From NCBI RefSeq assembly GCF_003515945.1, contig NZ_QWLM01000001.1, positions 186,001-250,000 of the forward strand: a stretch of 64,000 bases of DNA, given 5' to 3'. A program made the translations under genes and the position numbers. Source of the stretch: Dermacoccus abyssi. GTDB lineage: Bacteria > Actinomycetota > Actinomycetes > Actinomycetales > Dermatophilaceae. Positions 45,037 through 53,025 of this stretch are shown here, in pieces. The notes under the pieces were generated by a model. That model was not told the DNA's origin and ran no database searches. It saw only the letters and a program-made list of their open reading frames with translations. How positions within the stretch are numbered: the stretch's first letter is position 1; every line of letters starts with the position of its first letter.

Positions 45037-48000
45037 TCAGACTTCCTCGACGCTGCTCGGCTCGCGGCGCGACAGGTCGATACCCAGCTCCTCGGCAGCG
45101 CGGAAGACTTCCTGCTCCGAGTCGCGAAGGTCGATCGCCGTGCCGTCGCTGCTGAGGACCTCAACGTTGAGGCAGAGCGACTGCATTTCCTTGATGAGAA
45201 CCTTGAACGATTCCGGAATGCCGGGCTCGGGGATGTTCTCGCCCTTGACGATGGCCTCGTACACCTTGACGCGGCCGGTGACGTCGTCCGACTTGATGGT
45301 GAGCAGCTCCTGCAGCGCGTAGGCGGCGCCGTACGCCTCCAGGGCCCACACCTCCATCTCGCCGAATCGCTGACCACCGAACTGCGCCTTACCGCCGAGC
45401 GGCTGCTGGGTGATCATCGAGTACGGACCGGTCGAACGGGCGTGGATCTTCTCGTCCACCAGGTGGTGGAGCTTGAGGATGTACATGTAGCCCACCGACA
45501 CCGGGTCCGGGAACGGCTCGCCGGAACGACCGTCGAACAGCTGCGCCTTGCCGGAGTTGTCGATGAGACGCACGCCGTCACGGGTCTTGTTCGTCGAGTC
45601 GAGCAGACCGCGGATCTCGGCCTCTCGCGCACCGTCGAACACCGGGGTGGCGATACGCGTGTTGGCGCCGGCCTGACGCGCGTCCTCGGGGATCTTGGCG
45701 GCCCACTCCGGCGTGCCCTCGATGTCCCAACCACGCGACGCGGCCCAGCCCATGTGCAGCTCGAGGACCTGACCCGGGTTCATTCGGGACGGAACACCGA
45801 GCGGGTTGAGCACGACGTCGACCGGCGTGCCGTCCTCGAGGAACGGCATGTCCTCAACCGGCAGGATCTTCGAGATGACGCCCTTGTTGCCGTGACGGCC
45901 GGCGAGCTTGTCACCGTCGGTGATCTTGCGCTTGTTGGCGACGTACACACGCACGAGCTGGTTGACGCCCGGGGGAAGCTCGTCGCCCTCCTCGCGGTCG
46001 AAGACCTTGACGCCGATGACCGTGCCGGTCTCGCCGTGCGGGACCTTCATGGACGTATCACGGACCTCGCGGGCCTTCTCACCGAAGATGGCGCGCAGGA
46101 GGCGCTCCTCCGGCGTCAGCTCGGTCTCACCCTTCGGCGTGACCTTGCCGACGAGCAGGTCGCCGTCGCGGACCTCGGCGCCGATGCGGATGATGCCGCG
46201 CTCGTCGAGGTCGGCCAGGACCTCCTCGGAGACGTTCGGGATGTCCCGCGTGATCTCCTCCGGGCCGAGCTTCGTGTCACGAGCGTCGATCTCGTGCTCC
46301 TCGATGTGGATCGAGGAGAGCGTGTCGTCCTGGACGAGACGCTGGCTGAGGATGATGGCGTCCTCGTAGTTGTAGCCCTCCCACGGCATGAACGCCACGA
46401 GCAGGTTCTTACCGAGCGACATCTCGCCACCGTCGGTCGCGGGACCGTCGGCGATGACAGCGCCTTCCTCGAGACGCTCACCCTCGGTGACCACGACACG
46501 CTGGTTGTAGCAGGTGCCCTGGTTCGAACGCGTGAACTTCGCGATGCGGTAGGTGCTGTACGTGGCGTCGTCGTTGGCGACGGTCACGAGGTCCGCGGAG
46601 ACCTCCTGCACGACACCGGCCTTCGTCGCACGCACGACGTCACCCGAGTCGAGTGCCGCGCGGTACTCGATGCCGGTACCCACGAGCGGGGCCTCCGAGC
46701 GCACGAGCGGCACGGCCTGACGCTGCATGTTGGCACCCATGAGGGCACGGTTGGCGTCGTCGTGCTCGAGGAACGGGATGAGCGCGGTGGCGGCCGAGAC
46801 CATCTGACGTGCGGACACGTCCATGAAGTCGACCTCGTCGCGCGCGACGTCGCTCGCCTCGCCGCCCTTGGTGCGGGCCATGACGCGATCCTCGACGAAC
46901 TCGTTGTCCTGCGTCAGCGGGGCGTTGGCCTGCGCGATGACGTAGGTGTCCTCCTCGTCGGCGGACAGGTAGACGACCTCGTCGGAGACCTTGCCGTTCT
47001 CGACCTTGCGGTACGGGGTCTCGACAAATCCGAACGGGTTGATGCGACCGTACGACGCGAGCGAACCGATGAGGCCGATGTTCGGGCCTTCCGGCGTCTC
47101 GATCGGGCACATGCGGCCGTAGTGCGACGGGTGGACGTCACGGACCTCCATGCCGGCGCGGTCACGGGAGAGACCACCCGGGCCCAGCGCGGAGAGACGA
47201 CGCTTGTGCGTCAGACCGGCGAGCGGGTTGTTCTGGTCCATGAACTGCGACAGCTGCGAGGTGCCGAAGAACTCCTTGATCGACGCCACGACCGGGCGGA
47301 TGTTGATCAGGGTCTGCGGCGTGATGGCCTCGACGTCCTGCGTCGTCATGCGCTCACGAACCACGCGCTCCATACGGGAAAGACCCGTGCGGACCTGGTT
47401 CTGGATGAGCTCACCGACGTTGCGGAGGCGACGGTTGCCGAAGTGGTCGATGTCGTCGACCTCGACACGCACGTCGACGTCATCGCCGTGACGCTTGCCC
47501 TTCATCGTGTCCTCGCCGGCGTGCAGCGCGACGATGTACTTGATGGTGGCCACGACGTCGTCGACCGACAGCGTCGAGTCCTCGAGGCCGCCGTCGACAC
47601 CGAGCTTCTTGTTGACCTTGTAGCGGCCGACCTTCGCGAGGTCGTAACGCTTGCCGTTGAAGTACAGGTTGTCGAGCAGCTGCTGAGCGGCCTCACGCGT
47701 CGGCGGTTCGCCCGGACGCAGCTTGCGGTAGATCTCGAGCAGCGCGGCGTCCTGGTCGGCCGTGTGGTCCTTCTCCAGGGTGGCGCGCATCGACTCGTAC
47801 TGGCCGAACTCCTCGAGGATCTGAGCCTCGGTCCAACCGAGGGCCTTGAGCAGGACGGTAACGGACTGCTTGCGCTTGCGGTCGACGCGAACGCCGACCA
47901 TGTCGCGCTTGTCGACCTCGAACTCGAGCCAGGCACCGCGGCTCGGGATGACCTTGGCCGTGTAGATCTCCTTGTCGGAGGTCTTGTCGATGCTGCGCTC

Positions 48001-48522
48001 GAAGTACACGCCGGGGCTGCGCACGAGCTGCGAGACGACGACACGCTCGGTGCCGTTGATGACGAAGGTGCCGCGGTCGGTCATGAGCGGGAAGTCGCCC
48101 ATGAAGACCGTCTGGCTCTTGATCTCGCCGGTCTCGGCGTTCATGAACTCGGCGGTGACGAAGAGGGGAGCCGCGTACGTCATGTCGCGCTCCTTGCATT
48201 CGTCGATCGAGTACTTGACGTCCTCGAAGCGGTGGTCGCGGAAGCTCAGCGACATGGAGCCGGAGAAGTCTTCGATCGGGGAGATCTCCTCGAAGATCTC
48301 CTCGAGACCGGAGCGCTCGGGGACGTCGACACGGCCCTCGGCCTTGGCGGCAGCCACGCGGGCCTGCCACTTCTCGTTGCCGAGGAGCCAGTCGAAGCTC
48401 TCGGTCTGCAACGCGAGCAGATCCGGGATTTCGAGGGGCTCACGAATTTTGGCGAAGGTGAGACGGCCGGAGGCAGTCTTCGCCGAGGACAGAGTCTGGG
48501 TCGCGGTGCGCGAAGCAGCCAA
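45037..48522 (-). CDS. rpoB: DNA-directed RNA polymerase subunit beta
   Basis: 1161-residue catalytic subunit, standard actinobacterial length. The rifampicin pocket reads [20 protein letters not shown] then [12 protein letters not shown], with the resistance-hotspot Asp, His and Ser all in the wild-type state. The flap, [13 protein letters not shown] and the C-terminal [20 protein letters not shown] segments are intact. ATG at 48522. Preceded by a 468-bp region with a good promoter candidate; upstream is the ABC exporter gene, an unusual neighbour since rplL commonly precedes rpoB. Confidence 0.99.
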
Positions 48523-48735
48523 GGAGTGTTCCTTCCACAGGCCTAACAGAGCGGCTAATACGTGCCCTCAGCCCCCGGACGGAACCCGAACCCCAACGCA
48601 CTCGAGCGCGAGGATCGAACCCACCCGTCGTGGTGACCGGGACGCGACGCGGCCGCAGCCGGTCGAACAGTCGATCTCGTCGTCGTGCTTCGTTGGTTTT
48701 CGAGGGTGCCCAGAGACAAGGCAGCGCAAAATAGC

Positions 48736-48764
48736 AGAATAGTCCCCCGGTCGGGGACATGCAA
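48736..48764 (-). promoter_or_regulatory. Candidate rpoB promoter with palindromic spacer
   Basis: Minus strand TTGCAT (48759-48764), exactly 17 bp, TATTCT (48736-48741). The spacer (48742-48758) is itself an inverted repeat, GTCCCC and GGGGAC arms around 5 bases, filling it end to end. Expected start about 48729, leader about 205 bases. Confidence 0.6.
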
Positions 48765-48844: not shown

Positions 48845-48990
48845 TATTGAGTTACATGAGGATGGCTCAGCCGGGCTCGCCAGTCAAGCACCCACACCGC
48901 GCCGCGCCCGAGCGACCGGCAAAACCCCCGTGATGACACCCCATCCGGGTGATTCGCGGCAGGTCGCCGAGCGGGCGCCCGAGGCTCCGG

Positions 48991-51900
48991 CTAGCCCGCC
49001 AGAGCCCCGAACCGCCCACTCAGCCTGGACCACGGACCGACAGCGGCGACGCGCCCGTCCACGAGCACGACGACGCGGTCGGCCCGGGCCAGTGCGGCCC
49101 GCTTCGAACTCGCCCCGATGACGGTGGAGCCTCGCTCGCGCAGCGCGTTCCACAACTCCAGCTCGGTGGCGGCGTCGAGGGCGCTCGAGACGTCGTCGGC
49201 GACGATGAGTTCGGCGTTGGTGGCGAGTGCGCGCGCCAGGGCGAGACGTTGCACCTGCCCGCCCGACAACCGCAGGCCGCGGTGACCGACCAGCGCATCG
49301 ACACCCCCGGCCCGCTCGATGTCGGGCACGAGACGGGCATCGGCGACGGCCTCGTCGTACCGTCGCGGCAGACCGAGACGGATGTTGTCACCGAAGGTGC
49401 CCGACAGAACGCGGGGCGTCTGGGACACGTACGCCACCTGGCCCGGCCGCAGGAAGCTCTCCTCGTCCTCGACGACCTTCCCGTTCCACCGCAGTTCGCC
49501 GGTGTAGCGCACGAGCCCGGCGAGCGCGCCGAGCAGGCTCGACTTGCCTGCACCCACCTGACCGAGGACGAGGACGAGTTCGCCCGCCTCCACGGTGAGC
49601 GAGACGTCCTCGACGCCCAGCGTGCCGTCGTCGTGCACGGCCGAGAGGTGCTCGAGGCGCAGGCTCTCGAGCCGTTCCCCCGGCTCCTCTTGGGGCGCCG
49701 GGGCCCGGCCCGCCGCGAGGTCGACGTCCTTCGGCAGCGACGTGATGTCACGACCACCCGCGTAGGCCACCGTGGCCTGCTGCCACGCCCGGGTGCCGGG
49801 AGCCTCCGTGACCACGGCGCTGGCCACCTGGCCGAACCACTCGAACCCCATCGCCGCGTTCGCGACGAGGAGGCCCGTCGCGAGGCTCCACACGTCCCAG
49901 ACGACACCGGCCCAGGCGATGACGACACCGGCTTCGATCGCGACGAGCGGAACGCCCTGGAGCACTGCGGCGATGCGGTGTTCACGCACGGCGGCGTCGA
50001 CGCGGCCCGCGTCCACCTGGCGCAGGTGCTCGCGCGCCTCCCGCAGACGCCCCGCCAGCTTGACGGTGCGCGCCGACTCGACGACGGAGACCAGCGCCCG
50101 GCCGAAGCGGGCACGGCTCTTCGACGCCGCGGCGGCTGAACTTCCCGCGAGGGGACGCCCGAGGGCCGAAGCGGCAGCGGAGACCAGCAGGATCGCGGCG
50201 AGCACAGCGCCGGTGAGCGGTGTGCCGGACACGAGCGACGTCACCGCGACGATGGCCAGACCGTTGAGGAAGTCGACCCAGCGGTCGGCGTATTTCACGA
50301 AGCGGTCGGCGTCCATCGCTCGGGCCACGACCTCACCGGGCGGGGTGGCCTCCAGCCGCGACGTTGCCGTCTGACCGAGCAGCACGTTGAGTCGCACTCG
50401 AAGGAGCACCTCGATCCACCACCGGGGGTAGCGCGAAACGGCCCACGCGAGGATGCCCGGCCCGAGCAGCACCGCGACGAGGGAGGCGACGAGCCAGGGG
50501 CGCCACTCAGCATCCGCGACGAGGGCCTCGACCGTCGTTCCCCACACCCAACCGGTGATGGCTCCCACCGAACCGACGAGGGAGAAGGCGAGGAAGCCCA
50601 GCCCCGGGATGGCGCCCCACAGGGGCTTGACCAGGAGCGCGTCACGGATACCCCGCCACAGCGGAGGGGCGGGGTCGACCTTGCGGGCGGCAGGCACGTC
50701 AGTGCGCCGACGAGCTCGCAGAACGGGTTGATCGTCCGGCGCCGACGGCGCGTCAGGCGTATCGGCCTCGGGTACTGAAGCGTCGGCTGCCTCCGCAGCC
50801 TCGAGGAGGCGGCTGAAGTGGCCCGGTGCCTGCGACAGCTCGTCGTGCGTGCCGAACTGCGCCACGCGGCCGCGATCGAGCACCGCGACGAAGTCAGCGC
50901 GTTCGATGGTCGAGAGGCGGTGGGCGATGATGACCCCGGTGCGGTTCTTGAGCAGCCGCTCCGACGCCGCGACCACGCGCGCCTCCGTCACCGGATCCAT
51001 CCGCGCCGTGGCCTCGTCGAGGATGACGACCTCGACGTCGCGTGCGAGCAGACGGGCGAAGGCGACGAGTTGCGCCTCCCCCGCCGAGAGCGTGATGCCT
51101 CCCGGGCCGAGCAGGGTGTCGACGCCGTTCGGCAGTCCCTCGACCCAGTCGCTCAACCCGAGCTCGGCCATGATCGCCGTCACCCGGGCATTGTCCGCCT
51201 CGCCGAAGAGCGTGACGTTCTCGGCCAGCGTGCCCGCGAGGATGTCGGTCTTCTGGGTCACCGTCCCCACAGCGGCGCGCAGGGCGTCGACGTCGAGCTC
51301 GAGCACATCACGTCCGCCGACGAACACCTGGCTCGCAGGCGGCTCGACGGCCCTGGGGACGAGGCTCGCGAGCGTCGACTTGCCGGAACCCGTGCGCCCG
51401 ACGAGCGCGAGCGTCGCACCGGCGGGAAGCCGCAGGTCGACGTTCTCGAGGACGACGTCGTCCCCCGTGTAGGAGAACGTGAGGTCGCGGAACTCGAGGC
51501 TGAGATCGCCGTCGGGGACCGGATCGCCCTCGACGCGCTCGGGCTCGACCGCCATGAGCTGACGCAGTCGGGTGATGGCGCCGAGGCCGGCCTGCAGGTC
51601 GGGAAGCTGCTCGGCGAGGCGCCCGACCCGCCCGACGAAGGTGCTCGTCACGAGCACGAGCGTCACAACCTGCGAGACCGCGAGGTCACCGCGCGAGGCG
51701 AGAACGACACTGACCGCCATCGCCACGGCGAGCAGGAGATGCAGCGTCAGCCCGGAGCGAAGGATGACGCCGACTTCGAGGCGCAGCACGTCCTGGAAAC
51801 GACGGTGCACCACCGACGACAGGCGCACGATGTTGGCGAGGACGAAGCCCTGGCCGAGGTTGGTGCGGATGTCGTCACGCGCGGCCACGCCCTCTTCGAA

Positions 51901-52506
51901 CGCAGCGGCGTGCTCTGTCCACTGGGCTTCCTCGATGACCTTCCGCTCGGCGATCTTGCCCAGCAGGGGTTTGATGAGCCAGAAGGCCCCCGCGGCGAAG
52001 AGCGGGAACAGCACCCACGCGGGAGTCCAGGACACGCCCGCCACGACCCACATGGGCACGAGCGCGAAGACGGTGTTGAGCACCATCCACAGCTGCATGC
52101 GCACGAGGTTGTTCACCTCGTGGGTGTCGTCGTCGACGCGGTCGAGCACCTCTCCCACGGCCTGCTCCGACAGCGCCGCGAGGGGCTGGTGGAGCACGGC
52201 GTCGACGAGGTCCTGGCGCAGCGCGCCGGCAGCCCGGTCGACGACGGTGGCCCACACGTATCGACCCACCGTGTTGAGCACGGCGCTGCCGAGCAGGAGC
52301 ACGGCCAGCCACGCGACGAGCCCGCCCTCGGGATGTTCCGCGAGCCGCCCTGCGAGGAGCGCCGCGATCGAAGGACCCACCGACGAGACGGCCAGTGCAA
52401 CGAGCGCGATCACAGCGGCGGGGCCACGCAGGCGTCGCCAATCGACAGGAGCCCGATGGGCTTCGGAAGCCGATCGGGTGGGGGCGGACGCTGACTGCTG
52501 ACTCAT
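48991..52506 (-). CDS. ABC exporter, two half-transporters fused (TMD-NBD-TMD-NBD)
   Basis: 1171-residue predicted efflux ATPase. First membrane domain about 35-330, first NBD about 345-570: Walker [10 protein letters not shown] (~369), signature LSAGE (~471), Walker [13 protein letters not shown] (~491), switch AHR. A charged linker follows, then a second membrane domain (~640-900) and second NBD: Walker [10 protein letters not shown] (~982), signature LSGGQ (~1077), Walker [13 protein letters not shown] (~1099). In the second NBD the catalytic Glu is Asp and the switch His is Ser (GASSKR), so one ATP site looks degenerate. Start ATG 52506; a TAATGT 10 bp upstream suggests a near-leaderless transcript. 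It appears joined to rplL only because of a base missing in rplL. Substrate unknown. Confidence 0.92.
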
Positions 52507-52606: not shown

Positions 52607-52639
52607 AAGTTCACGATCCCAGGCGAGCCCGGGACGAGA

Positions 52640-53025
52640 TCACTTGAGCTCGACGGTGGCGCCGGCGCCTCGAGGGACTCCTTGGCCTTGTCCGCGGTCT
52701 CCTTGTTGACACCCTCGAGAACGGGCTTCGGAGCACCGTCAACGAGGTCCTTGGCCTCCTTCAGACCGAGGGACGTCAGGGCGCGGACCTCCTTGATGAC
52801 CTGGATCTTCTTGTCACCGGCAGCGGCCAGGATGACGTCGAACTCGTCCTTCTCCTCGGCAGCGGCAGCGTCGCCACCGGCAGCCGGAGCGGCACCGGCA
52901 ACTGCAACCGGGGCAGCAGCGGTGACGTTGAACGTGTCCTCGAAGAGCGTCACGAACTCGGAGAGCTCGATGAGCGTCATTTCCTTGAAAGCCTCAAGGA
53001 GCTCGTCGTTGGAGAGCTTCGCCAT
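52640..53025 (-). CDS. rplL: 50S ribosomal protein L7/L12 (apparent frameshift near the end)
   Basis: Stalk protein that recruits translation GTPases. N-terminal dimerisation domain [20 protein letters not shown], Ala-rich hinge, and C-terminal domain [40 protein letters not shown] are intact. After KAKESLEA the family ends AGATVELK and stop; here the frame reads PAPPSSSSD because one base is missing at about 52667 (GAGGCGCC where GAGGCCGCC is expected). In the restored frame TGA lies at 52640-52642 and the protein has 128 residues. As written, translation would run on into the ABC exporter. Probably a sequence error. Confidence 0.93.

Follow-up and report, generated by a model that had tools for sequence, protein, structure and literature searches.

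The window, i.e., the whole 64 kb stretch of Dermacoccus abyssi DNA that was analysed, carries rpoB on its minus strand. The coding region and the elements that precede it are the following:

45037-48522, minus strand: rpoB coding region, with a TTG start codon
48523-48729, minus strand: untranslated rpoB leader, 207 nt long if transcription starts at the box
48560-48566, minus strand: GGCACGT, a weak counterpart in the window of the leader segment GGYRYGCGY, which in many relatives is complementary to the box; it was picked out visually from its matching distance to the start codon
48720-48729, minus strand: start-site box TTGCGCTGCC, which follows the -10 element at exactly 6 bp and is the part of the locus that is conserved
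48736-48741, minus strand: TATTCT, -10 element of the very probable main rpoB promoter, matching the class-wide rpoB promoter
48742-48758, minus strand: spacer palindrome GTCCCC-GACCG-GGGGAC, i.e., GTCCCCGACCGGGGGAC, judged to be a chance repeat private to the species
48759-48764, minus strand: TTGCAT, -35 element of the same promoter, placed by alignment with relatives and common to the congener G001
48859-48887, minus strand: second promoter-like element TTGACT-N17-CATCCT, by its layout the counterpart of mycobacterial Promoter I

The original prediction described a TTGCAT and a TATTCT hexamer, 17 bp apart, with an inverted repeat as spacer. This description is exact on the minus strand (48764-48736), about 214 bp upstream of the TTG start of rpoB (48522). 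It had also named the site as the likely rpoB promoter, and this is very probable, the -10 element and the start region matching the rpoB promoter found across Actinomycetia. When both strands of the region were scanned strictly for the sigma-70 consensus, no promoter was called, TTGCAT sharing just 3 of 6 positions with TTGACA; because of this silence, the assignment of the main rpoB promoter rests on conservation. The closest match to the RpoB N-terminus among 80 rpoB loci is that of a Luteipulveratus (95%). The site very probably serves as main promoter of rpoBC in an actinobacterium related to this genus.

For the comparison, 217 rpoB upstream loci were oriented by tblastn, 80 of them coming from one genome collection. 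Removal of 66 redundant loci left 151 non-redundant upstream regions. The window promoter, TATTCT-GCTATT-TTGCGC, is one of the 126 regions having an exact TAnnnT-N6-TTGCGC. The spacer between the -35 and -10 elements measures 17 bp in 100 of these 126 promoters and 18 bp in 23. The -35 element is mostly TGGACA in relatives, and TTGCAT in the window and in G001.

MerR promoters have a palindrome between the -35 and -10 elements, with a spacer of 19-20 bp. The window resembles them by the position of its palindrome and differs from them by its spacer of 17 bp and by the lack of conservation of the palindrome in relatives. On this likeness, the original prediction had proposed that rpoBC may be under the control of a dedicated factor bound to the spacer, be it an activator of MerR type or a repressor. 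A perfect 6-5-6 dyad lying exactly between the hexamers speaks for such a factor, as does its low probability in one given spacer (about 5e-4 from composition), although a reader of 64 kb inspects very many features. Repeats of the same shape are, however, common in the window: 58 perfect 6-5-6 inverted repeats were counted, vs. a mean of 34 (range 26-46) in 20 first-order Markov simulations. It must be noticed that this excess over the Markov expectation concerns the window as a whole.

Comparison with relatives goes in the same direction. The promoter of G001, the one other species to which the genus comparison extends, is TTGCAT-CCTTCTTCTCTGGGTAC-TATCCT, i.e., its -35 element is unchanged and the box further down is kept while the spacer differs, and only 1 of the 6 arm pairs remains. 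When 481 bases were compared with G001 by blastn, alignment was found only at the -10 element and box (window positions 48747-48714) and at the gene start. The rpoB spacer of Luteipulveratus also has 1 of 6 arm pairs. Promoters scoring <15 and upstream stretches that were too short were left out of the spacer count, giving 125 distinct spacers; complementary outer pairs average 1.73 of 6 in these, with 1.68 expected, and all six arm pairs occur in a single one, the window's own. GTCCCC-N5-GGGGAC itself was sought in the 217 rpoB upstream regions and was found in none besides that of the window.

At the scale of the genome, this motif is present somewhere in 28 of 58 genomes (that of the window included), with 0-3 copies each, and lies at rpoB only in the window's genome. 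The latter (3.16 Mb) contains it in two places, namely the rpoB spacer and an intergenic stretch resembling oriC, the second location being a further argument against a dedicated rpoB factor. This other copy belongs to a longer, perfect palindrome of 19 bp, CGTCCCCAG-A-CTGGGGACG (L002:1500-1518; G000:C12, near 108924), and by eye the intergenic stretch around it contains repeats resembling DnaA boxes.

The search upstream of rpoB in relatives thus found the repeat gone from G001, from Luteipulveratus and from all the other regions, and absence from close relatives is the outcome that had been named beforehand as refuting a regulatory role. Without conservation, and with a spacer of ordinary 17 bp length, control of rpoBC by a dedicated palindrome-binding factor is unsupported and appears very improbable. 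The sequence comparison is best read in line with the caveat that accompanied the proposal, i.e., as chance in GC-rich DNA, considering the 58 such repeats in the window and the relatives devoid of the dyad: the palindrome would be a species-private chance repeat to which no dedicated factor binds. It may also be a very young operator private to this species, the congener comparison being limited to one species. The result on the palindrome removes a false lead.

What relatives conserve at this locus, as judged from the aligned upstream regions, is the start-site box TTGCGC(TGCC), found exactly 6 bp past the -10 element throughout the class Actinomycetia. In promoters, the strongest conservation does not usually lie beyond the -10 element. 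TAnnnT-N6-TTGCGC is exact in 126 of the 151 non-redundant regions (0.0 in shuffles), and not one of the 151 has TAnnnT and TTGCGC at spacings of 2-5, 7 or 8. In 14 more regions the box is one base off with its spacing unchanged, and the relaxation of any single box position brings up no more than 7 deviating sequences. The box is absent from the remaining 11 regions; six of these belong to two families (f4 and f108) with genomes of 1.2-2.7 Mb. In Mycobacteriaceae-like genomes (a label inferred from sequence), GTTGCGCTGGCTG is found at the equivalent place and spacing.

The box is also restricted to one gene. The exact TTTGCGCTGCC occurs once in the window's own genome. The longer form TAnnnT-N6-TTGCGCTG gives 16 matches in 20 genomes, one in each of 16, all of them beside rpoB; no regulon of the box is seen in the own genome and in this 20-genome search, which give one site per genome. 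A phylum-wide pattern search (296 genomes) found a related pattern at the rpoB spacing in 8/8 genomes of one family (f21), and the matches outside the class Actinomycetia look like chance. The box is described nowhere in the searched literature on actinobacterial rpoB leaders and promoters, which covered few subscription journals. A sequence preserved at a single gene and with a single spacing throughout a bacterial class suggests that the supply of RNA polymerase is under direct control. Taken together, a real main promoter, a palindrome due to chance and a conserved box make up the reading that we prefer, with a probability of about 0.85 for the three jointly.

In the 126 relatives, the 20 nt immediately following the box (+12 to +31, counted from its start) are rich in C (0.40) and poor in G (0.20), and resemble in this a Rho-loading site; the next 20 nt have C 0.34 and G 0.31.

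If the -10 hexamer is taken as -12 to -7, the TTG of the box falls on +1 to +3. We infer from this numbering that rpoB transcription would start within the box, at TTG or at the G at +3. Since its distance to the -10 element never slips, the box would be read during initiation, i.e., it would act during promoter opening and the synthesis of the first nucleotides by RNA polymerase. The steps concerned might be the choice of the start base, early pausing or escape, and the polymerase would read the start sequence of its own gene. We consider the odds of such a role in initiation to be even. The rigid distance between the -10 element and the box would also be compatible with a need for one precise RNA 5' end.

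Two other functions of the box were considered. The first is a binding site for a DNA-binding protein, overlapping the rpoB transcription start; it would account for the single site per genome and for the strict position. Inspection reveals no dyad in the box, however, and a class-wide factor with a single site, whose distance from the -10 element never shifts by even 1 bp, would be less economical than reading by the polymerase itself, so that such a protein is improbable. The second is a leaderless upstream reading frame that the box would open with a TTG start (Met-Arg-Cys...), giving a leader peptide. The position of TTG at about +1, again with the -10 hexamer at -12 to -7, is in its favour. 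On the other hand, the first base of the box is T in 126 of 128 cases and C in 2, and never A or G as in ATG or GTG; moreover, stop codons occur within 20 codons in 50, 51 and 41 of 126 sequences for the three frames, respectively, i.e., no frame is favoured. This reading frame was rejected on these two grounds, and a leader peptide is hardly credible.

The box may also act as RNA, possibly in addition to its role in initiation. The rpoB mRNA would then begin with the box, positions +3 to +10 (GCGCUGCC) pairing with a segment GGYR-Y-GCGY located about 42-46 nt before the start codon. Such a pairing would close the leader beside the ribosome site and set translation or mRNA stability. For the duplex count, leaders with <40 nt searchable or with a distance from box to start >300 nt were left out. 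In 82 of 122 leaders, vs. 25.8 expected, the leader segment that pairs best with the box is found 30-49 nt ahead of rpoB. GG[CT][AG][CT]GCG[CT], whose pairing with GCGCUGCC leaves one pyrimidine bulged, is present there in 38 of 124 leaders, vs. 2.7 in shuffles. When its positions are relaxed singly, every base seen at the three two-letter pairing positions is compatible with pairing except for one A, and the fixed positions of the segment show 12 departures in total. In 34 aligned leaders 89.7% of the pairs form (15-70% in slid versions). Folding of 118 leaders gives for +3 to +6 a pairing probability of 0.92-0.96, vs. 0.68-0.85 with the rest of the leader shuffled.

Several results weigh against this pairing. 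Since the box hardly varies, shuffles pair equally well and P1 shows zero two-sided changes. Pairing energies are barely beyond those of shuffles (mean z -0.48). The inner stem has no common register, the ground on which it was rejected as an inner hairpin of the leader; its two-sided changes are weak. When boxes were swapped between Mycobacteriaceae-like and other leaders, the own box was the better one in 10/11 and 46/74 leaders, but a control stretch upstream of the promoter behaves alike and the swap was not counted. The covariance search covered 96 sources rather than all loci; in the window its model finds only the ribosome-site end (E 0.18) and does not find the GGCACGT segment (48560-48566). 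Lastly, RNA pairing leaves the fixed spacing to the -10 element and the invariant unpaired TT unexplained. The leader sequences suggest, for many relatives, a pairing of the RNA 5' end with the leader near the ribosome site, which would be weak in the window; as a function added to the role in initiation, it appears less likely than not.

Pairing of the box with rpoB codons 4-6, although striking in folds, was dropped, other coding windows pairing equally well; at the start codon, the pairing of the box reaches about -9.6 kcal/mol vs. a coding background of -8.1 (sd 2.0). No Rfam family matches the window at the gathering score, and searches at relaxed thresholds, which took in the upstream region of the window and the loci of 20 relatives, gave spurious matches only. 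A conserved cis element listed as a candidate upstream regulator of rpoB is Lacto-rpoB RNA (RF01709; PMC2864571); according to the part of that source consulted, it is restricted to Lactobacillales, and the rpoB leader of the window has no Rfam match.

The second promoter-like element, TTGACT-N17-CATCCT, is about 117 bp upstream of the -10 element of the main promoter. Elements of this type are found in 22 of the 151 upstream regions in a strict form and in 54 in a loose form (0.0 and 0.5 in shuffles, respectively). By sequence, two tandem promoters precede rpoB, at 48887-48859 and 48764-48736, as do Promoter I and Promoter II upstream of mycobacterial rpoB-rpoC in the sections consulted of Zhu et al. 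2018 (PMC6181997). In mycobacteria, according to the same sections, the downstream promoter is the stronger of the two and is kept in check by the upstream one, an effect that rifampicin relieves, shifting the balance between them. The downstream mycobacterial promoter has its counterpart in the Mycobacteriaceae-like genomes compared here, where it is followed by GTTGCGCTGGCTG at equal spacing. What those sections report is a CGCTATNGTT motif and a conserved region between the promoters, and not a class-wide start-site box. A further system responding to rifampicin is the helD/pps alarm (PMC12802891), in which paired promoters sense the state of the polymerase. Its promoters are opposed while those of rpoB are in tandem, its genes differ, and the start-site box is not mentioned in the part of the article consulted.

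The bases of the box sit next to the promoter governing rifampicin-induced rpoB expression in mycobacteria. The presence of the box at rpoB alone in nearly all Actinomycetia, together with the duplex between box and leader, could constitute an undescribed autoregulatory device setting the supply of beta and beta-prime via the polymerase itself; such a device is conceivable rather than likely. If true, it would bear on rifampicin tolerance in a class that includes Mycobacterium and Streptomyces.

As for the surroundings of the locus, a large ABC-transporter coding region lies on the minus strand at about 49000-52500, between rpoB and rplL (ribosomal protein L7/L12; about 52637-53025, minus strand). 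The gap between rplL and rpoB amounts to 4-13 kb in 5 of the 6 relatives checked and to about 0.5 kb in one. The rplL sequence of the window is one base short near its end, and its frame runs into the next gene; the frame is intact in 6/6 relatives, and the break is probably a sequencing or assembly error.
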